Assembly: GCA_017473705.1 (NCBI GenBank)
Contig: JAFUJQ010000001.1
Location: 60,313-124,312 of the forward strand
Length of the DNA stretch: 64,000 bases
Reading direction: 5' to 3'
Origin: Bacteroidales bacterium
Lineage (GTDB): Bacteria > Bacteroidota > Bacteroidia > Bacteroidales > UBA932
Part shown: one piece after another, positions 4,580 through 61,483 of the stretch
Layout: the number at the start of each line of letters is the position of its first letter
How positions within the stretch are numbered: position 1 is the stretch's first letter
Notes under the pieces: generated by a model
What the model saw: the letters and a program-made list of their open reading frames with translations, nothing else
The model's database searches: none
Told to the model about the DNA's origin: nothing
Made by a program: the position numbers and the translations under genes

Positions 4580-6418
4580 TTATTCGATTGGAGTTACGCC
4601 TTCAGCTGTAACTGTGAGGAAGTGGTCACGGTCAGCAGTGATGGTGTAATCACCGTGCTGAGTACCGCCACCGTTGTTGTTGAAGATGAGGTTGCAGGTC
4701 GTGCCGAAGCCCTCTGCAGGAATTTCGAATACTTTGTATTCCTTGCCGTCAACAGTTTCGGTTGTGCAGGCAGCTCCCGGCCATCCTCCGACAACATCGT
4801 TGATGTCACCCCAAGAGTACATTGCGATTGCATCCCAACCTGTCTGGTCATCAACATATACCTTCAGTGCAGGTGCAGTGCCGATTTCGGCTGCAGTTTC
4901 GCCGGCAACGATGAAGTTGTACTGAGCGATTGTCACTACCGGAGCATCGAACTGTGTACCGTTATTGTTGTTGAAGATCGGGTGGTATACGAGGTCGTAT
5001 GCAGTTGCAGTAGTCTCAACTCTGCTATATGCTGCTCCGCCGCAAGTCACATTGTTCTCAAGCGCTACGCCCGGCCATCCGCCGAAGAGCTCTGGAAGAG
5101 CGTCGCCCCATGCATACATGTATGTTGCATCGTATCCTGTGTTGTTCTGAACGTAGAATACTACTGGAACAGGATCTGCCGGTACTTCAGGCTCTTCAGT
5201 GCTGCCACCTGTGCAGTCCTTGCAGCCCTCGCAGTCGCAGCCGCAACCGCCTTCACCAGGATTCTCTCCTTCGCCAGGGTTCTCTCCTTCGCCGCCCTCA
5301 TCGCCGCCGACCGGCTCACGGTTGAATGGGTCCTCGATGACGACGCAGTCCTTTTCACCGTAAATCAGGTAGAAGTGGTCTACCACATCGGCGCTGAATG
5401 TCACAGGCATGTCACCTGTCTGGATGCCGCCGCCGTTATTGTTGAAGATGAGGTTCTGACCGAGTCCCTCAACATCAGCTATGGCATACTCGAAGTATGT
5501 ATACTCCACACCAGCGATCTTAGCTGTTCCTGCCGGCTGCACGCCTGGCCATCCGCCACCAAGGTCATTGACATCACCCCACTGATAGAGTGCAATTGCT
5601 TCCCAGCCAGCCTGGTTGTCAACATACACGCGGATGGTACCCTCGTGTGAAGGGATCGAGTTGGCTACTTCCACACCTTCGTCTGTGATGACGAGGAAGT
5701 ACTCATCCTTGTCAAGTGTCACGTTGTAGTCGCCAAGCTGTGAACCTGCGCCGTTGTTGTTGAAGATAAGGTTGAGGTTAAGACCTCTGTTAGCCTCGCC
5801 AAGGTCGAAATAAGTCCATGTTGTACCGTCGATGACAATCTCTCCTGTAGGCTGCATGCCTGGCCATCCGCCGAATGCCTCGGCATCACCCCATGCGTAA
5901 AGTGCAAGCGCATCCCAGGATGTCTTGTTGTCAACATAAAGAACCGGACCGTCATGTTCGATCTCAGGAGCTACATAGAAGAACAGGTTCCAATATGACA
6001 GGTAGATGTTGGCTCTTGTACCTGGTGCAGGATTCTCTGTGCGGTTTACCGCCTCGTTCTTTGCAGTTCTCTCTTCGCCTTCACGAGCGGAGATGAAACG
6101 GTATCCGTCAGCAAGAGTCTTTCCATCGACGAAAGTCGAAGGGTCGAGATAGATGCCCCACTTCTTGTCAATGGTGGTAGACTTCTCAAGGTGCCACATC
6201 ACGTTCTCAGCAGCAGCTTCGTCACCACCGTTGAATGCACCGGAGATGTAGATCACATCGTCAGCCTTCGTGCTGGAAGGAACGATGACCTCAAGGAGAA
6301 TCATTCCCTCCTTGGTCTCAAAGGCAGGCTGCTCGTGGTCAAAGACGATTTCTTCCTGAGCGCAAGAGCCGAGGAGCATCATCAGAGGCAGCATAAGCCA
6401 GTTAAATATCTTTTTCAT
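4580..6418 (-). CDS. SusE/SusF-type surface starch-binding lipoprotein with four CBM26-like modules
   Basis: 612 aa. Lipobox LLGSC (Cys19). An N-terminal SusE/F-like domain (about 35-150) is followed by four homologous modules at about 158-250, 261-358, 419-506 and 517-610. Each has the pattern W/Y-D-A-(I/L)-x-(M/L)-Y-x-W-G-D, then G-G-W-P-G, then I-F-N-N-N, as in starch-binding CBM26. Modules 2 and 3 are separated by a Gly/Glu-rich linker (about 366-415) that contains five cysteines in eleven residues (392-402). Position after susC/susD and the modules imply a starch-tethering protein at the cell surface. It takes the place of both SusE and SusF of the Bacteroides thetaiotaomicron system. 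The Cys-rich linker is unusual. Confidence 0.9.
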   Translation of the reverse strand: MKKIFNWLMLPLMMLLGSCAQEEIVFDHEQPAFETKEGMILLEVIVPSSTKADDVIYISGAFNGGDEAAAENVMWHLEKSTTIDKKWGIYLDPSTFVDGKTLADGYRFISAREGEERTAKNEAVNRTENPAPGTRANIYLSYWNLFFYVAPEIEHDGPVLYVDNKTSWDALALYAWGDAEAFGGWPGMQPTGEIVIDGTTWTYFDLGEANRGLNLNLIFNNNGAGSQLGDYNVTLDKDEYFLVITDEGVEVANSIPSHEGTIRVYVDNQAGWEAIALYQWGDVNDLGGGWPGVQPAGTAKIAGVEYTYFEYAIADVEGLGQNLIFNNNGGGIQTGDMPVTFSADVVDHFYLIYGEKDCVVIEDPFNREPVGGDEGGEGENPGEGENPGEGGCGCDCEGCKDCTGGSTEEPEVPADPVPVVFYVQNNTGYDATYMYAWGDALPELFGGWPGVALENNVTCGGAAYSRVETTATAYDLVYHPIFNNNNGTQFDAPVVTIAQYNFIVAGETAAEIGTAPALKVYVDDQTGWDAIAMYSWGDINDVVGGWPGAACTTETVDGKEYKVFEIPAEGFGTTCNLIFNNNGGGTQHGDYTITADRDHFLTVTAEGVTPIE

Positions 6419-13099: not shown

Positions 13100-13987
13100 C
13101 TACAACTTCTCCACAGTTTCCCTGTCCAGCCCTGTGGCCTGAACGATGGTGTCAATGTCGACGCCTAATGCCTTGAGTTTAATTGCCATCTCGATCTTAG
13201 CTTCAGCATGTCCCCGGGCATGTCCTTCGGCTATGCCGTCTTCCCGAGCGGCGGCCAGTTCTCCGTTGCGTCTTTTTTCGTCGTACATATCCTTGTCGTA
13301 TTGTTCTCGTTTTGTCTTGCTGAAACCACCGATTGCAAATGCGTCCAGGAGGTCCTTGCATGGTTTTTCTCCAGCCCATTTCGGCGGCCTTTCCATCTTG
13401 CCTGAGTTCTTCAGCAGGTACAGCAGCTTGTCATCCAGCGTAACGCACTCATCCTCAGTCTTGTGGAATCGTGTCAGTTCAGCAAAGATAATAACAATTG
13501 TCTCATCTAGCAAGTCATGACATTCCTTTTCGCGGAACGTATATTCTGAAATATACCTGTCCTCCCAGTACTCCTTGTCCGGATGATCTATGTCCACTCC
13601 CATCAGTCCGATGAGGTAGACTGGCGGGACATCATAGTCAAATCCCGTCTTGTTCTGCCTGTCATATGCTCTGCTCGCATAGCTGACGCATCGCTTGAAC
13701 CACGACTTCTCTATGTATCGTTGCATCTCCACGATGAACTTCGCGCCCGATGCGTCGCTGCACATGAAGTCGTACTTGAATTCCTTGCTCTGCCCGATGA
13801 CGGGTCCCTGATGCTCCGTCGGCTGATAATAGATCTCCTTGATCTGCCTGTGCTTCGGAAGCATAGTGTTCAGCAGCGCCATCACCGCCTCCTTGTTGCT
13901 CTCGTCCCCGAAAAACGCCTTGAAACCTCCGTTGCTGAGTATGTCCACATACCTCTGCTCTGTCTCTGCATGAATCTTATTTCCCAT
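13100..13987 (-). CDS. Rpn/PD-(D/E)XK nuclease family transposase-like protein
   Basis: 295 aa. The N-terminal half is the PD-(D/E)XK family found in Rpn recombination-promoting nucleases, with Asp73 (KYDF) and Glu87-x-Gln89 (IVEMQR) as the expected active-site residues. The C terminus has a charged segment rich in Ala, Glu and Arg (AEGHARGHAEAKIEM) and a short helical tail (ATGLDRETVEKL), as in many Bacteroidales members. Rpn proteins are DNA endonucleases that stimulate RecA-independent recombination. Many copies per genome are common. It appears intact and monocistronic, with a hairpin downstream and a repeat-bearing intergenic region upstream. I see no terminal inverted repeats, so I do not call an insertion sequence. 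Confidence 0.85.
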   Translation of the reverse strand: MGNKIHAETEQRYVDILSNGGFKAFFGDESNKEAVMALLNTMLPKHRQIKEIYYQPTEHQGPVIGQSKEFKYDFMCSDASGAKFIVEMQRYIEKSWFKRCVSYASRAYDRQNKTGFDYDVPPVYLIGLMGVDIDHPDKEYWEDRYISEYTFREKECHDLLDETIVIIFAELTRFHKTEDECVTLDDKLLYLLKNSGKMERPPKWAGEKPCKDLLDAFAIGGFSKTKREQYDKDMYDEKRRNGELAAAREDGIAEGHARGHAEAKIEMAIKLKALGVDIDTIVQATGLDRETVEKL

Positions 13988-49415: not shown

Positions 49416-49466
49416 CAGTCCCAATTCGAAAGGAACTCACAAGATACCCAAGAATGACCTCGGATT

Positions 49467-49539
49467 GATTCGCTAGCTCAGCAGGTAGAGCACAACACTT
49501 TTAATGTTGGGGTCATGGGTTCGAGCCCCATGCGAATCA
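49467..49539 (+). tRNA. tRNA-Lys (anticodon TTT)
   Basis: 73 nt. Acceptor GATTCGC/GCGAATC with discriminator A. The anticodon stem CAACA/TGTTG encloses loop CTTTTAA, anticodon TTT. T loop GGTTCGAGCCC. First of three tRNA-Lys genes under one promoter. Confidence 0.97.
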
Positions 49540-49551
49540 CGGAAAAATAAT

Positions 49552-49624
49552 GCTTCCCTAGCTCAGTTGGTAGAGCACGACACTCTTAATGTTGGGGTCC
49601 AGGGTTCGAGCCCCTGGGGGAGCA
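49552..49624 (+). tRNA. tRNA-Lys (anticodon CTT), copy 1
   Basis: 73 nt. Acceptor GCTTCCC/GGGGAGC with discriminator A. Anticodon stem CGACA/TGTTG, loop CTCTTAA, anticodon CTT. Identical over its full length to the copy at 49680. Confidence 0.97.
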
Positions 49625-49679
49625 CAAGGCAAAAGCCTTATGCGGTTTCCCGCAGACATATTGAAGCAATTCAAGCAAA

Positions 49680-49752
49680 GCTTCCCTAGCTCAGTTGGTA
49701 GAGCACGACACTCTTAATGTTGGGGTCCAGGGTTCGAGCCCCTGGGGGAGCA
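49680..49752 (+). tRNA. tRNA-Lys (anticodon CTT), copy 2
   Basis: 73 nt, same sequence as copy 1 and separated from it by 55 nt. It is the last chromosomal gene before the AT-rich mobile region, so its 3' half is the natural candidate for the attachment site of a tyrosine integrase. Confidence 0.97.
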
Positions 49753-49756
49753 CTAA

Positions 49757-49788
49757 AAACCCCTCTACAGGTATCTGTGGAGGGGTTT
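49757..49788 (+). terminator. Terminator of the tRNA-Lys operon
   Basis: 14-bp stem with one G-U pair (AAACCCCTCTACAG 49757-49770, CTGTGGAGGGGTTT 49775-49788) and a GTAT loop, immediately after the last tRNA. Confidence 0.8.
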
Positions 49789-49797
49789 GTGTATACA

Positions 49798-50166
49798 AAT
49801 GTTCCTGAAATGTTCCTATTTTTCAAATAGTTTCTGAAATATACCCAAGGACCCCCGTCTGGATTGCTCAGGACGGGGGTCGGTGGAATTAAAAATCTGT
49901 CCTTTTTGACAGAACTTTTGCAAAGTTAAAGAGTCATTTAATAAAATCCAACAGAATTTTTGACTTGTTTTTGAGAGTTGATAGGAACATCATAGGAACA
50001 TTTCTGTATTGTGAATAGGAACATTTTTGGTCTTTCTTGTCCGAAATCGTGGATCTTTTTATCTTTATAAAATGGAATCATTAAAAATAATGCCCCTAAA
50101 ACAACCCTATTTTAAGTTGATTTAGGAACATTATAGGAACATTTTTTCATGAACTTTAGGAACATT
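49798..50166. repeat. TAGGAACATT repeat array: two identical three-site sets plus an inverted pair
   Basis: Direct copies start at 49982 (last base C), 49993, 50016 and again at 50123, 50134, 50157. Spacing is 11 then 23 in both sets, with the sets 141 bp apart. Two inverted copies (AATGTTCCT) start at 49798 and 49809, also 11 bp apart. The last direct copy ends at the stop codon of the first HTH gene. Position between a tRNA end and excisionase-like genes suggests arm-type sites for an integrase or excisionase. Confidence 0.85.
49850..49881. terminator. Strong GC hairpin at the element's left end
   Basis: GACCCCCGTC (49850-49859) pairs perfectly with GACGGGGGTC (49872-49881), 12-nt loop. 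It may insulate the element from the tRNA operon. No long T tract follows. Confidence 0.5.
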
Positions 50167-50465
50167 TATCTTTGTTCCTTTCTTCTTGCATATTTGATTA
50201 TAAGTTTCTCTTCTACAGCATTTTGTACTTCTGATGTTTTCAATAATGAGCGTCTTCCGAACTTGTATATCTTTAGTTTCCCTGCCTTAACATTCCTATG
50301 TAGTGTTGAAAGTGAAATTTTAAAGAGAAGTGCAGCCTCGTTTCTAGTCATATATTCGGGGATTTCAGCCGTATTGTGCATATATCCGGACATTGCTTTC
50401 TCTACAGCCTTTATCACAGTATCTTCAAGCTCTGCTTGGCTGAGTATGACAATTTTTTCATTCAT
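50166..50465 (-). CDS. Helix-turn-helix (HTH_17, excisionase-like) protein
   Basis: 99 aa. A single winged HTH of the excisionase/MerR-like type: YMTRNEAALLFKISLSTLHRNVKAGKLKIYKFGRRSLL (about 38-75), preceded by a short helix and followed by a basic tail. Such small proteins bend DNA at attachment sites or repress neighbouring promoters. The gene ends at the edge of the repeat array at 49798-50166, so binding there is a fair inference. It lies 11 bp downstream of a second HTH gene. Confidence 0.8.
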   Translation of the reverse strand: MNEKIVILSQAELEDTVIKAVEKAMSGYMHNTAEIPEYMTRNEAALLFKISLSTLHRNVKAGKLKIYKFGRRSLLKTSEVQNAVEEKLIIKYARRKEQR

Positions 50466-50476
50466 AGCATTAGTGT

Positions 50477-50773
50477 TTAGTCGTCCATTCCAGTCTCGAA
50501 TACTGACTTCTTGTGATTGTTCCTGAAGAAGCTCTCGATGTCTTCATCTGTGTAGTAGTATGTGTTACCTACTGCTGAGTATCCGATCAGCTTCTGATCT
50601 CTCCATTTCTTCAATGTTGCAGAAGAAATTTCAAGCAGGTCTATCACCTCCTGGTTTGAGTAGTGGGTTTTCCTGCTGTTGGATAAGATCATTCTGATGC
50701 GTACCATCTCTCTTTTCATATCTTCGATGGTTTCTGTCAGATATGTGAGTCTGTAGTCGAGTTTCTCTTCCAT
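50477..50773 (-). CDS. Helix-turn-helix protein with N-terminal coiled coil
   Basis: 98 aa. Residues 1-35 form an amphipathic helix (likely a dimerising coiled coil), then an HTH_17-type domain with YSNQEVIDLLEISSATLKKWRDQKLIGYS (about 38-66) and a YYYTDEDIESFF wing. This arrangement is very common in Bacteroidota mobile elements, usually beside a toprim primase. It lies 3 bp after the primase gene. Confidence 0.82.
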   Translation of the reverse strand: MEEKLDYRLTYLTETIEDMKREMVRIRMILSNSRKTHYSNQEVIDLLEISSATLKKWRDQKLIGYSAVGNTYYYTDEDIESFFRNNHKKSVFETGMDD

Positions 50774-50776
50774 AGT

Positions 50777-51679
50777 TTATAGTGATTTTTTGATTGATAT
50801 CTCGTTGATGTCGTATCCCCGGCAGTTCTGCAGCATTTCATTAAGGTCCTTGTGCTGGGCATATAGTGATGACATATCTTTGACTTCCTTGCCGGGAAAC
50901 ATCTTTCTGATGTCTTCGAGACATTTGCGTCCTGCCTGGTCGTTGTCGAGGAAGCAGATGTATGAGTCGTGCAGTCTGAGATAGCCGGTTGCTTTGTCAA
51001 GGTTGTTGACTGAATTAAGAACGAGTATGTCTGTGGTGGGCGTCTTGGCATTCTGGAGTACTTGCCACGAAAGGAAGTCGAAACTACCCTCAAAGATCGA
51101 CACGGCTCTGGTTGACGGCATTACCGTCCGTTTGCCTTCGGTATTTATGGTTGTTATACCTCCTTTGCTGCACGATTTGAATCCATACGGCGCGCTTAGA
51201 TTATGGCCTCCAGCATTGTTCTCAAACCCCAAAGTCGTGTAATCTTTCCCTTTTACGTGGTTTCTTAGGATGACTTCTTTGCAGTATTTGTCTGCTATGC
51301 TTATAGGAATCTTCCTCTCTTCAAGGTACTTCTTGAGGTAATAGCTACAGATGGGCTTTACCTTTATGATTTCTGTGGTCGGAGCAGATTCGGGTTTTGA
51401 GATTGATTCTGTTCTGCTGGCTGCAGCAGGATCAAGTGTTTTGATGTATGACTCCGCTTCTTCTTTACTGCATTTCTTGACGGCCATTATCAGCTGTACG
51501 TTTGTTCCTCCGATGCCGGCTCCGTGATCGTACCATACATTGTCACGTTTGTTCACGTGCAATGATGGTGTCGTCTCATTTCTTAATGGAGAATAGTACA
51601 TTCCTTTGCCTTCCTCCTTGCATCCAAGGTGCTCAAGAAGAAGGTCAATCGGGTAGTTATATATTGGATTATCGAACAT
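50777..51679 (-). CDS. Toprim/CHC2-type primase of mobile elements
   Basis: 300 aa. The N-terminal region is CHC2-like (PLRNETTPSLHVN, WYDHGAGIGG, about 30-60), but I do not see a complete set of zinc cysteines. The Toprim domain has Glu197 in FEGSFDFLS and Asp245-x-Asp247 in FLDNDQAG. Element-encoded primases of this kind start lagging-strand synthesis after transfer, as PrmN1 does in NBU1. Transcribed towards the tRNA with the two HTH genes as one unit. Confidence 0.88.
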   Translation of the reverse strand: MFDNPIYNYPIDLLLEHLGCKEEGKGMYYSPLRNETTPSLHVNKRDNVWYDHGAGIGGTNVQLIMAVKKCSKEEAESYIKTLDPAAASRTESISKPESAPTTEIIKVKPICSYYLKKYLEERKIPISIADKYCKEVILRNHVKGKDYTTLGFENNAGGHNLSAPYGFKSCSKGGITTINTEGKRTVMPSTRAVSIFEGSFDFLSWQVLQNAKTPTTDILVLNSVNNLDKATGYLRLHDSYICFLDNDQAGRKCLEDIRKMFPGKEVKDMSSLYAQHKDLNEMLQNCRGYDINEISIKKSL

Positions 51680-52161: not shown

Positions 52162-54078
52162 CTAACTCCTGGATTTTGACAATTCATCTCTTATAAGATT
52201 GACTATCTCCCTCTTGATACGGAGGTAGTTGTTTGTGATTTCTTCCTCAATCTTGTCCTCGGGCAGGTTGAGGATTTTTGGTATGTCCTCGTTATGTTCT
52301 GCTGGAGGAGGCAATATCACTTCTCCGCAGAATATCTTCGGATTGACTTTCTGCTTGAAGGTATCAGCGACGTAACCGCAGAAGGTTCCCTGTGATAAAG
52401 ATTCTATCTTATGAGCCGGTAGTACGTCCTTGAGTTGGTAGGAGTACGTCACGTGATCGCTGATGTCGCTTTCCTGGTATGACCTTGTCTCCCTCTCTTC
52501 CTTGCCGAATGACTTTGACAGAGTCTCGGCAGTACTGCCCTTCACCGCTCCGGCAAATACATTTCCGACGGTATTGAAGATCACATCTGACTCCTTCTTG
52601 TCATAATCCTTGACCAGTTGCGTCTTGTCCTGTGCACCGAGAACAGTTGCCACCATGTTTGACCTGGCAGTATTTATAAGGTGGTCCAGCCCTTTGAGAA
52701 GGATGGTTGGAAGCTCATCTATCAGTACGGCACTATGCATCCTGCCAGGCTTGTTTATCATCTTGAACAGTCGTGAGGTCAGTATGGCCAGCGTTGTTCC
52801 ATAGATTGACTGTCTCATCGGATTGTTACCGACGCAGATGATCTTCGGGTCATCCGGATTATTGATGTCCAGGCTGAAATCATCTCCCGACAGAGTCCAG
52901 TATAGTGTCTTTGATGCGAATCTGTTCAAAGGGACTCTGGCTGAAGCGATCTGTCCCTGAAGTTGTTCGAAAGCCTTGTCTTTGATGGCATCAGCAAACG
53001 TGTTTCTCTTAACTTCCAGTTCGTCAAACTGCTTCAGCACTTCAAATACATCTCTGTAATCCTGACCCATCAGCTCGATCAGATGGGGAAATGTGCAGTA
53101 CTTACCTTCGTCGTATATCCTCAGAAACCATATAAGGAGATCCACGTAGCATACAGCAGAAGTAGAGAAGAAATCCTCCTTCTTTTCCTTGCCTCTGCTT
53201 ACGTTGCTCATTATGATCTCAGCGACCTCCGTGCTATCGATAGGATCCGTAAGATAACGTGGGTGTATCGGATTGAAACGGTGCGAATGGAGAGGATCAT
53301 CAAAGTTTACCGTGTAAAACTTCGGCTTTACCTTGAAGCAGTCGTAATGATCCAGCAGTTCGTTAAGGACAATTTTCGTAAGATCCGGGTATTTGTAATC
53401 GTACACGAACAAGGCATATCCCTTACTCAGCATCTGTCGGATGAAATGGCGGTATATGGCTGCGGTCTTGCCACTTCCGGGAATTCCGAGAATCAAGGTG
53501 GCACGCTGTGGCGAGACTACATTGGCATAACCGTCACGGATCTTTCCTTTATACTGATACCGGAACGGAATGTTCACACTCAGATCATTCTCGATCAGCT
53601 CTTCACATTGCTCGAATGTATCCCAATAATCCGGCAGATTGGCATTGAAACTACGGAACTTCCTACCGAGAAGTACTGACCCTGCCAGAAACATCACATA
53701 TCCGGTAAAAGAAGCCAGCAGAAACATCCCCCTATTGCCGAGAAATGTAGATGCCATAAATACCGCGAGTCCGGACAGCAGAGGCAGAAGTATCTCCGCC
53801 CAACTTGAGTCCTTCGAGTTTCCGGAACGAACTACGAACGACAGCAGACAGAAGAATAAGCATATGCCTCTGACGGCCATCTGTGACCTCATAATTCCAG
53901 ACTTGTAAAACTGTATCATCAGCATATCCGTCATACCTGATGATAATCCTATCCTTACCCAGAACGGATAAGCATAATAGTATAGAATAACAATCAAGAT
54001 GACTCCTGACAACATCAGGAACATCGAAAACATAGGTTTTGTTCTTGCATCCATCTCCTCAATCCTTTTCTCAAACAA
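52162..54078 (-). CDS. mobC: VirD4/TraG-type coupling protein (mobC of Bacteroides mobilisable elements)
   Basis: 638 aa. Four hydrophobic helices in the first ~140 residues, then a P-loop ATPase with Walker A GIPGSGKT (198-205) and Walker B SAVLIDELPTILL (about 440-452), ending in a region typical of type IV coupling ATPases. It links the relaxase-DNA complex to a type IV secretion channel. The element has no mating-pair-formation genes in the window, so the channel would come from a helper element. It starts 29 bp after the relaxase gene. Confidence 0.9.
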   Translation of the reverse strand: MFEKRIEEMDARTKPMFSMFLMLSGVILIVILYYYAYPFWVRIGLSSGMTDMLMIQFYKSGIMRSQMAVRGICLFFCLLSFVVRSGNSKDSSWAEILLPLLSGLAVFMASTFLGNRGMFLLASFTGYVMFLAGSVLLGRKFRSFNANLPDYWDTFEQCEELIENDLSVNIPFRYQYKGKIRDGYANVVSPQRATLILGIPGSGKTAAIYRHFIRQMLSKGYALFVYDYKYPDLTKIVLNELLDHYDCFKVKPKFYTVNFDDPLHSHRFNPIHPRYLTDPIDSTEVAEIIMSNVSRGKEKKEDFFSTSAVCYVDLLIWFLRIYDEGKYCTFPHLIELMGQDYRDVFEVLKQFDELEVKRNTFADAIKDKAFEQLQGQIASARVPLNRFASKTLYWTLSGDDFSLDINNPDDPKIICVGNNPMRQSIYGTTLAILTSRLFKMINKPGRMHSAVLIDELPTILLKGLDHLINTARSNMVATVLGAQDKTQLVKDYDKKESDVIFNTVGNVFAGAVKGSTAETLSKSFGKEERETRSYQESDISDHVTYSYQLKDVLPAHKIESLSQGTFCGYVADTFKQKVNPKIFCGEVILPPPAEHNEDIPKILNLPEDKIEEEITNNYLRIKREIVNLIRDELSKSRS

Positions 54079-54107: not shown

Positions 54108-55268
54108 TTACAGCTTCGGGCCTTGACTATTGCGTCCTTGTTTCATATATACCTCATCATCCCTCCTGCGGTTCCTTTCCGTTCCTATCGCAGCCATCAC
54201 GATGGCTGCCAGATTATCTGCAGCGGAAGCTGCATTCCCCTTTTCACCATCATTTTCCTGCCACCGCTGATCGGCACAGTCAAGGTCGTTCGCAGTGATG
54301 CCCTTCAATTCACTTGCCTTGAAGCAGCACTGCTGTTCGTGATCGATGAACGTCGCACCGAAGATACGGCCTTCCGAATTTCGGGAGAACTCCACGGAGA
54401 TACCGAACTTCGCCAGCAGGCTCCGGAAATGCCTTTCCGATGTGGCGTTGCCGAAACAGAACTGCACGACCTTGCCTGTGCGCTGCCTTTCGTCGTTGCA
54501 CTTGCTTTTTCCGCAATCGAAGGAACGCAGAAGTATCTGTTCGTAAACGGGAGTGTCAAGATTCTTCTCCTTTATCCGACCGGTACAACGCTTACCTGAA
54601 GCGGGATCAAGTCCATAGAAACTGATTTCAATACGACCGCAACGGCTTTTGAAAACCATCTCAACACCAAGGCTTTTCATCGCTGCTTGAAACTGGTTGA
54701 CAGTCGTGAAATGATATTTCATCACATCTCTCATCAACGATTCAATCTGACCTGAGTAGTTTGGCTTTTTCGGATCAAAACGTCTTACATTGATTGCGTC
54801 GCTCTTTCTAAAGTCGTTTGCCTTACCTACAGTAAACCCATACTTCTTTGCCAGTTCCTTCAGTAATTTTGCACTTCTCCGACCTTCAAAACTGTCGTTG
54901 ATCTTCTTGCCGTTCTTATCAACTCTGACCGACACGATATGGTAATGCTCCCGATCAATGTCGTTATGCTTGTATAAGATATATGGCTGATCACCGTAAC
55001 CCATTCCCTCCATATACTCCTTGACAAACTCAATCATCTTGTCTTTGTCAAGTTTCTCTCCTGGGGCTGGATTTATACTGGCGTGAAATGACAGCTTTTC
55101 GGTACGGACACTTGCATTCTCATATAGCTGAAATGTCTTCATCGGGTCACTCTTATCTTCTATGTTAGAGCAATAGGCCACCGAGGCTGTTCCCCCGGAG
55201 ACCTTCTGCTCATTGTATCCTACCGTGACAGAAACGCTTGATGCAGCATCTGCAATGACTATTACCAT
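54108..55268 (-). CDS. mobB: Relaxase/mobilisation nuclease (mobB)
   Basis: 386 aa. The relaxase domain occupies the first ~200 residues: SFHASINPAPGEKL followed by the three-histidine motif HNDIDREHYH (His101, His108, His110) that binds the metal. A Tyr near the N terminus (Tyr18 or Tyr32) is the likely nucleophile. It nicks oriT and stays bound to the transferred strand. The C-terminal ~190 residues are less conserved and basic. Order accessory protein, SSB, relaxase, coupling protein fits a MobABC module with an SSB gene inserted. Confidence 0.9.
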   Translation of the reverse strand: MVIVIADAASSVSVTVGYNEQKVSGGTASVAYCSNIEDKSDPMKTFQLYENASVRTEKLSFHASINPAPGEKLDKDKMIEFVKEYMEGMGYGDQPYILYKHNDIDREHYHIVSVRVDKNGKKINDSFEGRRSAKLLKELAKKYGFTVGKANDFRKSDAINVRRFDPKKPNYSGQIESLMRDVMKYHFTTVNQFQAAMKSLGVEMVFKSRCGRIEISFYGLDPASGKRCTGRIKEKNLDTPVYEQILLRSFDCGKSKCNDERQRTGKVVQFCFGNATSERHFRSLLAKFGISVEFSRNSEGRIFGATFIDHEQQCCFKASELKGITANDLDCADQRWQENDGEKGNAASAADNLAAIVMAAIGTERNRRRDDEVYMKQGRNSQGPKL

Positions 55269-55306: not shown

Positions 55307-55618
55307 TCAGTTATCCTTCACTCCTGGTGATATGTCAAGACTATAGACCCTGACATCAAGATTGAGATGGGTCTTCGTCTCTGTGACATTCAGGGATACA
55401 CGTAGTTCTCCGGTGACCGATACGTGTCTGCCTTTCTTCAGGAGTTCTGATGAGCCGTTTTTCTTCATCCGGCAGCTGTAGTAGGTTGGCTTGCTGTCCT
55501 CACTTCCAATCTTTGGTGAGTTCACTGCAACTGTAAATCTGACCATTTCAAGGTCTCCTTTGATTTGGAACGTCTCACAGTCTGCTGCGAGATGTCCCGA
55601 AATAATGATTGTCTGCAT
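55307..55618 (-). CDS. ssb: Single-stranded DNA-binding protein
   Basis: 103 aa. OB-fold of the SSB family: starts IIISGHLAADCE, with VRFTVAVNSP, a KGRHVSVTGELRV strand and no acidic C-terminal DDDIPF tail, which is usual for short mobile-element SSBs. It should protect the transferred strand. It sits between the relaxosome accessory gene (12-bp gap) and the relaxase. Confidence 0.88.
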   Translation of the reverse strand: MQTIIISGHLAADCETFQIKGDLEMVRFTVAVNSPKIGSEDSKPTYYSCRMKKNGSSELLKKGRHVSVTGELRVSLNVTETKTHLNLDVRVYSLDISPGVKDN

Positions 55619-55630
55619 AATAGTTTAAGT

Positions 55631-56020
55631 TTATGAAAGTTCTTCCTTGATTTCGCATACCTTGGCAAGTATACCTTCCATCAGTGTCTTCATTCCACTG
55701 AGCTTGTATTCCATTGAACGAGTGGATACGACAGGTCTGCCGTTGCTCCCTTTGAGCTTGACGGCTGTATTGACTGCCTTTACGACTTGATTGTAGTTTA
55801 CTCCGATCTTCTTGATATCTGCCCTTAGAATCTCAATTTGTTTGCAGATATTCGCATCGGAACTGACAAGTTTACGCCTCTGTATCTTTCTTCCGAACAG
55901 GCGTTTTCTGATGAATTTTGATCTTGATCTGAAGCCTTCAAGCGACATCATTGTCGCAAGATCGATGGCTTCCTCATCCGTAATACGGAATGTAATTCTG
56001 ACTGTTTTGTTCTTTCTCAC
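55631..56020 (-). CDS. mobA: Relaxosome accessory protein (mobA-type, ribbon-helix-helix)
   Basis: 129 aa from GTG 56020, which follows a strong GAGGAGGAG ribosome-binding site; a GTG at 56170 in the same frame would add 50 residues that look like translated oriT DNA. The N-terminal part (VRITFRITDEEAIDLATMMSLEGFRSRSKFIRKRL) is a MobC/ribbon-helix-helix DNA-binding region. The rest is helical and basic. In Bacteroides mobilisable elements the gene upstream of the relaxase helps it recognise oriT. Confidence 0.75.
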   Translation of the reverse strand: MRKNKTVRITFRITDEEAIDLATMMSLEGFRSRSKFIRKRLFGRKIQRRKLVSSDANICKQIEILRADIKKIGVNYNQVVKAVNTAVKLKGSNGRPVVSTRSMEYKLSGMKTLMEGILAKVCEIKEELS

Positions 56021-56099
56021 AATGCTCTCCTCCTCTAACAGTTTAACTATGTCTCTATCACAACCTCCTGACCGTTGTATGACAGGAGCGACTTCGGAG

Positions 56100-56180
56100 C
56101 GTACCCTGTAATGGGCAAGATGAGCCCCTGCGGGGCGGAGCGGACGGAAGACTTTGTCTGACGAACGCACATCTTGCTTT
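56100..56180. promoter_or_regulatory. Candidate oriT
   Basis: Just upstream of the mobilisation genes an inverted repeat GCAAGATG (56115-56122)/CATCTTGC (56170-56177) encloses a small GC hairpin GCCCCTGCGGGGC (56124-56136). The 50-codon in-frame extension of the accessory gene crosses this DNA. The arrangement fits a relaxase-nicked transfer origin, but no nick consensus was checked. Confidence 0.5.
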
Positions 56181-59470: not shown

Positions 59471-59720
59471 CTACAATTTGAATAACTTTTGTTACTCTGC
59501 TCCTACAAAATGACTAACCCGTCACTATAAAATGACTAACTTGTTACTACATTTTGACTAACCCTGATGATTGCTTACTACAGATTGACTAACTATGATG
59601 AAAAACAAGATAAATAAGAGTCTGTTGGAATATAATCAGAGTTAGATATGTGTAATATGTTGATAGTGAGCGCCTACTTTTTGACTAACCTGAAATTTAA
59701 GACCCTACAAATTGACTAAC
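59471..59720. repeat. Seven iterons, candidate replication origin
   Basis: CTACAnnnTGACTAAC-type 16-mers start at 59471 (divergent), 59503, 59525, 59547, 59578, 59674 and 59705; steps are 32, 22, 22, 31, 96 and 31. The invariant part TGACTAAC is present in six of seven. They lie directly beyond the 3' end of the RepB-type gene, so they are the likely binding sites of that initiator (oriV). Confidence 0.85.
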
Positions 59721-59736
59721 TATGTATGTGAGAAGA

Positions 59737-60786
59737 TTACTTTTCGTGGTCTTCGGAAAGCTCCTGATAACGCAATGACCAGTCGTTAAACCATTGATTC
59801 AGTGAGGCCCTGATGTAGCTATCCCTATCTTTGATAGATGGATTGTTTTTGATGTATCCGGACAGTCCCACCAGTTTTTCCATAAATGGCCTGAGGTCTT
59901 CGTATTCAAGCCGGAGAAATATGCTTGATATGGTATCAGTCTGAGCGCCCATTTCGCTTAAAAGCCCGAAACAGATGTCCCGTGCTTCAATGGTCTTTTG
60001 CTTTCGTTCCTCTTCCGTGAGCCTTATCTTGATTTTGAATACAAGCCTTTTATACCCGGACGTGTCGTATGAGCGGAACTGGAACCATATAGGAAATCTT
60101 TCCTGAAGTTCCTGTTGTGCCGGTCTGATGACTCTGTTGACGATATTGTCGTACCTGTCGTATCCTTCAGTCAATGAAAGGATCCTTTTGAAGTTTTCCA
60201 GTGTGATGACGAAGCCTCCTTTCCCTCTCCAGGAACATATCATCCAGTACAGCCTTACTGTGTATTTATTTGTGAGTGACAATGCAGAACTATGCGAATA
60301 GTAGCTGTAGCCTTCTTCTGTCAGGAGGAGGCGGTGGATCATCTTGTCAAGAATACGTATCTGTACGGTGGTCGAATATGCTGGGAATGTGAATCCTGCA
60401 ATCAGCCCAGGATATCTGCATCGCTCTGGAAAGATACAGTGGGTTGTCTGAAGTTCGGAAAGATATAATCTGAGTCTTGCTCCGTTGTTTCGTCCCATAT
60501 GGAAGTCTCTCACCGGAATTTCGATTGTTCTTGTTGGTCCATACTGACCGATTTCACCTTTGGGAGGAAGATAAGCCGATGGTATGGGAGTATTCCTTTT
60601 GCCTCTTGATATTTTGTAGTGTATGGCGCTTTGGAGGTGACTGATAATAGCCATCAGTATTCTGAGGTGGGCAAGTTTCAGATCGCTTTCAAGATACGCG
60701 ATTCCGTTGACCTGATAAATTTCATCCTTCGGATGACTTTCAGATCGTCTGGTCTTTATGTGATTTTTCTTGCCCTTTTCTCTCAT
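59737..60786 (-). CDS. RepB-family (Rep_3) replication initiator
   Basis: 349 aa from ATG 60786; the 69 codons upstream in the same frame overlap the divergent beta-barrel gene's leader and look untranslated. Matches the two-winged-helix initiator family: NGIAYLESDLKLAHLRILMAIISHLQSA near residue 30, VRDFHMGRNNGARLRLYLSELQ near 105, and a second winged helix with LSLTNKYTVRLYWMICSW. It would bind the adjacent iterons. A rep gene on an element with tRNA-adjacent ends suggests plasmid-like replication after excision, or an integrated plasmid. Confidence 0.85.
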   Translation of the reverse strand: MREKGKKNHIKTRRSESHPKDEIYQVNGIAYLESDLKLAHLRILMAIISHLQSAIHYKISRGKRNTPIPSAYLPPKGEIGQYGPTRTIEIPVRDFHMGRNNGARLRLYLSELQTTHCIFPERCRYPGLIAGFTFPAYSTTVQIRILDKMIHRLLLTEEGYSYYSHSSALSLTNKYTVRLYWMICSWRGKGGFVITLENFKRILSLTEGYDRYDNIVNRVIRPAQQELQERFPIWFQFRSYDTSGYKRLVFKIKIRLTEEERKQKTIEARDICFGLLSEMGAQTDTISSIFLRLEYEDLRPFMEKLVGLSGYIKNNPSIKDRDSYIRASLNQWFNDWSLRYQELSEDHEK

Positions 60787-60857
60787 TACCCTGCAAAAAA
60801 TGTGTGACAAAAGTATCGGATTTATTTGGAATTTCCAAAGAAAAGATTTTCCTTTGT

Positions 60858-60896
60858 GGTAACGAAACAATACCAAGCGGTATTTTGAAAATACCA
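60858..60896. promoter_or_regulatory. Two GGT-N9-ATACCA motifs between rep and the beta-barrel gene
   Basis: GGT-N9-ATACCA at 60858-60875 and again at 60879-60896, exactly 21 bp apart. The motif is shared with 51797-51814 and 56272-56289. It sits in the divergent promoter region of the rep gene and the TraO-like gene, so one regulator could control both. Confidence 0.6.
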
Positions 60897-60919
60897 CAAA
60901 GTTGAAAAACAAGACCAAA

Positions 60920-61483
60920 ATGAAAGGTAAGACAGCATTAAAGATCTCTTTGCTTATCCTCGTTTGTGAGGTGAGTTTTATGTCGAATGCCACTGCGCAG
61001 AGGACTATGGCAGGACAGGGATTTCTGTCTGCTGATTGTCTGTATGACTTTGAGAACTTTGGTGCTATGGCTGAATACGGGCAGTATACTTTAGGCGGTT
61101 TCTGGACTTTAGGGGCAAGCGGTCATTTTTATGATGCGATGACCAGCTCTAAGTATAACCTTGAATATGTTCATTGCTATGCTTTCGGTGGTTATATGCA
61201 CCGTCTTGCCGGTACAAGAAGACGTAGTGTCAATCTGTATGGCGGCGGTGGCGTTTTTATGGGTACTGAAGTGCTCGATCCGATGAGCAGACTACCGAAG
61301 GATACTGTATTAGGAATCGGTAGAACAGCATTCCTGTATGGAGTGTATGCCGGTTTATCGGCAGAGTTCTTCATTGTTGAGAAAGTTGCAGTAATGGCTG
61401 GTGCTCTTGTTCCGCTTAACTTCTCATCGGGAATAAGGATGCTAAACTATGATGTCTGTTTGGGTTTGAAGGTAATGCTCTGA
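60920..61483 (+). CDS. Exported beta-barrel protein, TraO-like
   Basis: 187 aa from ATG 60920; an upstream in-frame TTG at 60902 is not favoured. Signal peptide ending NATAQ. The mature part is Gly- and Tyr-rich with alternating strands (GAMAEYGQYTLGGFWTLGASG, HCYAFGGYMHR, VNLYGGGGVFMG) and ends NYDVCLGLKVML. This resembles TraO-type envelope proteins of Bacteroides conjugative transposons, which are poorly understood. It may be cargo or part of the transfer apparatus. Confidence 0.7.
   Translation: MKGKTALKISLLILVCEVSFMSNATAQRTMAGQGFLSADCLYDFENFGAMAEYGQYTLGGFWTLGASGHFYDAMTSSKYNLEYVHCYAFGGYMHRLAGTRRRSVNLYGGGGVFMGTEVLDPMSRLPKDTVLGIGRTAFLYGVYAGLSAEFFIVEKVAVMAGALVPLNFSSGIRMLNYDVCLGLKVML

Follow-up and report, generated by a model that had tools for sequence, protein, structure and literature searches.

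Short repeated words at a tRNA-Lys gene of a Bacteroidales genome as probable arm-type integrase sites

The window, the whole 64,000-nucleotide stretch of DNA analyzed here, contains eight copies of a short word where a mobile element abuts a tRNA-Lys gene. Six of them, TAGGAACAT(T/C), form two triads, and two form an inverted pair near the tRNA. We consider it probable that these words are arm-type sites, recognized by the N-terminal domain of a tyrosine integrase that belongs to a putative integrative mobilizable element (IME) at the tRNA-Lys 3′ end. This reading is more secure for the inverted pair and less so for the triads. It draws on the words and their geometry, their position relative to the tRNA and the core, and their recurrence at other attachment (att) ends. 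In one such element (L189), a pair lies inside each att repeat, and the gene of an integrase with an arm-binding domain stands beside one of them. A preliminary description, made from the sequence alone, had already likened the words to arm-type sites. This is still the best-supported reading, with the pair recurring at other tRNA genes, but the triad has not proved to be general. It is plausible that a multimeric protein reads the array.

The word array and the tRNA-Lys end of the element

The coordinates of all features are listed in Table 1. On the plus strand, TAGGAACATC starts at 49982 and TAGGAACATT at 49993, 50016, 50123, 50134, and 50157. On the minus strand, CAGGAACATT at 49798 has one mismatch and TAGGAACATT at 49809 is exact. 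Two triads with equal offsets, 141 bp apart, and an inverted pair with the same 11-bp step had been noticed before, and every site was located as claimed; tRNA-Lys(ctt) ends 45 nt before the start of the pair. The letters of the word need a small correction: C is the last letter of the first word, and it is also the first letter of one of the two words in the inverted pair. Triad 1 lies 229–272 nt and triad 2 lies 370–413 nt from the tRNA. The array occupies the tRNA-abutting end of the element up to the stop codon of the minus-strand HTH1 gene, which the last word of triad 2 overlaps by one base. Between the second and third words, the 13 bp of the two triads agree at only 4 positions, so the triads are alike in words and spacing and not in filler.

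In 49757–50166, the commonest word occurs eight times (at most one mismatch, both strands, non-overlapping). In 200 dinucleotide shuffles of this stretch, the top word reached two (87 shuffles), three (102), four (10), or five copies (1). Counted over all of the window with up to one mismatch allowed, the 10-mer has 9 matches against 3.99 expected, and 4 of 100 shuffles reach 9. What is unusual is the clustering of the words, not the 10-mer count over the whole window.

Two smaller features were seen in the same region. The last word of triad 2 and a downstream TGTTCCT form a hairpin (50158–50179) that is terminator-like on the plus strand. Furthermore, 49552–49753 holds a tandem pair of identical tRNA-Lys(ctt) genes, and the relatives L192 and L021 also have two.

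Table 1. Features of the tRNA-Lys end and of the adjoining element in the window
Feature	Coordinates	Strand	Basis or remark
tRNA-Lys(ctt), the third and last tRNA-Lys gene, with the attachment site at its 3′ end	49680..49753	+	ARAGORN; downstream DNA differs among genomes
Core CCCCTGGGGGAGCAC, 15 bp of the tRNA 3′ end	49739..49753	+	Common to the junctions seen
Hairpin between core and inverted pair, likely transcription terminator	49757..49788	+	Inverted repeat
Inverted pair CAGGAACATT/TAGGAACATT, 11-bp step	49798..49818	-	Putative core-proximal arm sites
Triad 1: TAGGAACATC, TAGGAACATT, TAGGAACATT, offsets 0/+11/+34	49982..50025	+	
Triad 2: three TAGGAACATT, offsets 0/+11/+34	50123..50166	+	
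HTH1, excisionase-family HTH (HTH_17), likely recombination directionality factor	50166..50465	-	Pfam HTH_17
HTH2, second HTH_17/MerR-like protein	50477..50773	-	Pfam
Toprim/DnaG-like primase	50777..51679	-	Pfam; NCBIfam dnaG below cut-off
MobC-like (VirD4/TraG-type) coupling protein	52162..54078	-	Pfam T4SS-DNA_transf
MobB-like relaxase	54108..55268	-	Pfam Relaxase
Single-stranded DNA-binding protein-like	55307..55618	-	NCBIfam SSB models below cut-off
MobC_2/NikA-like mobilization accessory protein	55631..56170	-	Pfam
Iteron-like repeats next to the Rep3 gene, with a 31-nt unit ending TGACTAAC in six copies	59489..59721	+	Repeat search
Rep3-family replication initiator	59737..60993	-	Pfam Rep3_N/Rep3_C

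The core is identical, with differing flanks, in the window (L016), L190, L191, L192, L242, L097, and L267. The order is tRNA, core, element in the window, L191, and L192. In L190, a sequence that we call X, about 125 bp before the core, takes the place of the tRNA. In the genome of L190, contig C30 (L242) has X and the core followed by HipBA DNA, and in G288 related HipBA DNA begins about 50 bp past tRNA-Lys. Since the same core is flanked by the element, by X, or by HipBA DNA, flanks have been exchanged exactly at the core. Att sites share a core both here (15 bp, with swapped flanks) and in L189 (44-bp att repeats). The distal att site of the window element lies beyond the contig, which stops exactly at the window end, and the far end of the element is therefore missing.

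Reading X as the right end of the window element, with L190 as a circle junction, is insecure: the tRNA-Lys of G725 precedes other DNA, the same as that downstream of tRNA-Lys in G431 and G361. Therefore, X may be part of a neighboring element in tandem. L190 may be a circle junction, a tandem junction, or a neighbor's end, with flank exchange at the core in each case. X itself contains TATCGAACTC/TATCGAACTG with a 10-bp step (L242 1–138, L190 13852–13992), and in G288 (L097) an island with HipBA has an X-like sequence (71% over 86 bp) at its end. Past its tRNA-Lys, G431 has three tandem GTGTGGTTAAAA-type words with a 12-bp step (L095 2510–2545). In G725 (L267), the contig reaches just 67 bp past tRNA-Lys, and these match G431 with one difference. 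Many kinds of sequence follow tRNA-Lys among the genus loci fetched, so tRNA-Lys behaves as a hot spot.

The genes next to the array include an excisionase-family protein. HTH1 scores above the cut-off of NCBIfam TIGR01764, the excisionase DNA-binding family (35.2 versus 28.8 bits), and its PHROG matches include excisionase families. In NCBIfam, the coupling protein is closest to Bacteroid_MobC (649 bits, under the cut-off of 900) and the relaxase to Bacteroid_MobB (228 bits, under the cut-off of 400). A RadC-like protein is also encoded on the element (Pfam). A TraO-like match (E 9.5e-10) accompanies the relaxase, coupling, and accessory proteins, with the distal part of the element off the contig. 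The element, seated in the tRNA-Lys 3′ end, may be an integrative mobilizable element or an ICE. The copies of the 31-nt repeat are 61–100% identical to the reference. Repeats of TGACTAAC next to Rep3 are a typical iteron layout, and the element might replicate in circular form as well.

Recurrence of the word pair at other element ends

A scan for the pair with TAGGAACATNNTAGGAACAT returned 26 loci from genome contigs and 8 from viral contigs. Ten of the 26 are titled Bacteroidales, Bacteroidia, Bacteroidetes, Prevotella, or Prevotellaceae. A tRNA 3′ end within 250 nt of the pair was found at five of the 26 loci, all within these ten: tRNA-Cys (L111), Phe (L112), Lys (L115 and L117), and Arg (L121). 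A copy of the core or of a tRNA end borders three more of the ten (L106, as in L190; L119; and L120, as in L189). The other two, L113 and L129, are simple 11-bp tandem repeats at which no tRNA was found.

The inverted pair lies 45–54 and 56–65 nt past the tRNA 3′ end in the window, L190, L191, and L192 (tRNA-Lys) and in L197 (tRNA-Phe). The corresponding positions are 43–52 and 54–63 nt in L198 (tRNA-Cys), and 36–45 and 47–56 nt in L193, where an L197-type end sits at a core match and no tRNA was recognized. With starts at 45, 43, and 36 nt, the distance from core to pair is similar, not fixed. These ends have a repeated short word next to the core, and in L197 and L198 other hairpins occupy the interval between tRNA and pair. 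At up to one mismatch, the pair was found in 2 of 393 Bacteroidales genomes, one of them the window's own, and a reversed control also gave 2. The pair is thus rare and the control equal, so raw counts are no proof, and it is the tRNA and att positions that carry the argument.

L193 has a further peculiarity at about 650–1210 (G731:C121), where its tRNA-Phe-type end is joined to the C-terminal part of an integrase without the N-terminal part. The junction is a short tRNA-Phe 3′-end match and possibly a secondary insertion site.

A complete relative is L189, a tRNA-Pro element of about 8.9 kb bounded by 44-bp repeats of the tRNA-Pro 3′ end (4887–4930 and 13721 on). One pair lies inside each repeat, at 5049–5069 (118 bp from the repeat) and at 13649–13669 (52–72 nt from the tRNA), the tRNA-side pair in the orientation opposite to that of the window. 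The integrase gene starts at 5089, 19 bp from the pair, and its product has the domains Arm-DNA-bind_5, Phage_int_SAM_5, and Phage_integrase. L189 also encodes an excisionase-family protein further in and a terminase small subunit.

In L194, the only pair is at 242–262 nt from tRNA-Arg and lies 49 bp before an open reading frame (ORF). Over 136 aa, this ORF aligns with the N-terminal part of the integrase L013 (32.6%, E 2.9e-17); it has no Pfam match, and its likeness to integrases is by alignment only. The N-termini of L189 and L194 are not detectably alike, so a common binding domain is not supported. Among the viral matches, one of eight has an integrase near the pair: in L137, the pair comes to within 12 bp of the 3′ end of an integrase gene, whose last base is overlapped by a third word. 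A PHROGs search with 10 ORFs from four of the other viral contigs found no integrase, and in the remaining three matches the surroundings of the pair repeat those of L130 or L131. Searching the viral matches with other integrases by tblastn found none, but this search also missed the L137 integrase.

The triads tell less. The full layout is present in L106, L115, and L117, which hold almost the same element; in L115 one word has one mismatch. Triads are kept in the window, L190, L191, and L192, which are nearly one element (88–100% protein identity), so their conservation says little beyond common descent. Among these four near-identical copies, the words vary at 2 of 80 columns and the spacers at 27 of 330, a difference that is not significant (Fisher p = 0.09); the first word of triad 2 in L192 is TAGGGACATT. 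The 0/+11/+34 triad is absent from L189, L193, and L194, three ends long enough to judge, and all three have the 11-bp pair. L197 and L198, which show just 223 and 190 nt, fall outside this comparison. At up to two mismatches among 398 family genomes, the triad was found in the window's own genome only, and we found no triad in independent elements. The expectation that the triad spacing would be conserved in related elements therefore holds for the four near-identical copies and fails for L189, L193, and L194. As a unit the triad is not conserved, and what holds generally is an 11-bp pair close to the core.

Interpretation of the words and comparison with known systems

A pair of words one helical turn apart and about 50 bp from the core resembles the P′ arm of lambda attP, and the distance of 36–72 nt from the core in the window and its relatives fits a P′-type arm. 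Core-to-arm distances in the lambda P′ arm are comparable to that of the window pair, and this arm is not known to have anything like triads at 229–413 nt on one end. As portrayed in the portions of PMC4880445 used here, lambda integrase places its N-terminal domain on P and P′ arm-type sites and the remainder of the protein at the core, P′1 and P′2 being engaged after the IHF bend. The same portions give five arm-type sites in all for lambda attP, unlike the eight words at one end here (PMC4880445).

We infer binding by the element's own integrase, a lambda-like bridging, a bend in the DNA, and a role for the triads. The core CCCCTGGGGGAGCAC would be the place of strand cutting and exchange, and the inverted pair at +45 to +65 would act like the P′ arm. 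Integrase subunits held at the core would reach across the DNA bend and grip the two words one helical turn apart. The triads might serve as additional arm sites at this end, either for excision with the neighboring excisionase-family HTH protein or for loading of integrase. They lie far from the tRNA and are absent at three ends, which leaves room for a role in excision or regulation.

The gene order of small HTH, primase, and mob genes is presumably the same in NBU1 of Bacteroides as in the window element. NBU1 (IntN1, Orf2x) is likewise a mobilizable element that occupies a tRNA 3′ end and has a tyrosine integrase as well as accessory functions for excision; the cited portions describe accessory functions needed in excision, with IntN1/Orf2x and att DNA (PMC5704250). 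It differs in its target, tRNA-Leu in the part of PMC8138268 used here against tRNA-Lys in the window, and the window end shows no integrase. Arm-binding domains mark most tyrosine recombinases of mobile elements, and the IntDOT integrase of CTnDOT, one of these, interacts with subterminal arm DNA sites, again according to parts of that paper (PMC8138268). The order of domains in the L189 integrase is of the kind found in IntDOT, whereas the word and the target are different in CTnDOT. The 10K genomic island of Riemerella anatipestifer is, like the window element, a Bacteroidota island beside a tRNA; the portions of PMC6764341 concerned describe tRNA-Arg, att sites in the form of direct repeats, and a tyrosine integrase that has an IntN1_C-like domain. 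Its authors report integration and excision of a fragment that carries the integrase gene and a single 53-bp att repeat, and no arm words are described in those portions (PMC6764341). Our literature search on Bacteroides/Bacteroidetes arm sites with direct repeats found no description, and among the matches listed to the letters of the word, no title concerned an attachment site.

The inverted pair could be the integrase arm while the triads are bound by HTH1 or HTH2, serving recombination direction or autoregulation. This we think unlikely, even though the triads adjoin the HTH1 gene at its 3′ end, HTH1 falls in an excisionase DNA-binding family, and the L189, L193, and L194 ends do without triads. 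The same 9–10 bp word is found in the triads and in the pair, so two proteins would need one specificity; because the word is shared, the same protein probably binds both. Autoregulation in particular finds no promoter-like excess to act on (3 matches against 2.9 expected in 49460–50850), and transcription of HTH1 runs toward the array, which makes regulation from there unlikely. Short direct repeats, spaced out and neighboring HTH genes, would suit the operator of an ordinary transcription regulator. We hold this to be very improbable: the stretch lies between convergent genes (tRNA on the plus strand, HTH1 on the minus strand), where a promoter operator is unlikely, and pairs recur near other tRNA 3′ ends.

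Iterons, or a replication or partition site of a Rep3-encoding element, would be in keeping with the direct repeats, the AT-rich stretch, and the presence of a Rep3 gene. We regard this as extremely improbable, because the Rep3 gene has its own adjoining repeats with another word (six copies of a 31-nt unit with TGACTAAC, not the array word) and because L189, with another gene set (integrase, terminase small subunit), has the TAGGAACAT pair at its att ends. Arm-type sites for the integrase thus remain our preferred reading, which gains, among other points, from the excisionase-family protein adjoining the array.

More tentatively, and with more doubt than confidence, we suggest that one arm word has been kept while cores were retargeted (Lys, Phe, Cys, Pro, Arg), and that the triads are a second, switch-like integrase platform absent in lambda. 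Arm recognition and core recognition would then evolve separately, diverging within an element family that has one word. The triad platform might, for example, sense the dose of integrase or set the direction of excision. If our reading is right, otherwise different Bacteroidales elements can be recognized at their ends by a one-turn word pair close to a tRNA, even where, as here, a contig break removes the integrase. The elements would also form a natural series, with the same arm word and different tRNA cores, on how integrases are retargeted with the arm code kept, and the same series would address whether extra one-sided arm sites add control.

Search for the integrase of the element

The contig of the window breaks off short of the element's distal end, and no integrase of the element was found on it. 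The window's own genome has 13 Phage_integrase matches. We looked around 92 loci of integrase and related matches, drawn from this genome, three other carriers, and several more genomes, and found the 11-bp word pair at none of them. At E 1e-12, HTH1 was found among 249 family genomes in the window's own genome only, and against plasmids it matched 3 records at about 30% identity. The Toprim protein matched 30 plasmid records, all below 60% identity, and had no confirmed match among viral contigs. Around 18 of the 36 listed places with Toprim homologs in other families, there was no 11-bp pair. In DNA searches against plasmids and phages, the matches cover 3–7% of the query among the matches listed (19 of 19 records and the best 20 of 60).

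One candidate, an integrase region common to G725 and G729 (98.2% over 2.9 kb), was rejected; its contig has seven ACACACAGT repeats and is without the TAGGAACAT pair. These direct repeats (L264 223–416, G725:C220) follow one another at steps of 24, 34, 22, 61, 23, and 21. They stand directly before the gene of an integrase with an arm-binding domain and make up another large arm-like array, built from a different word.
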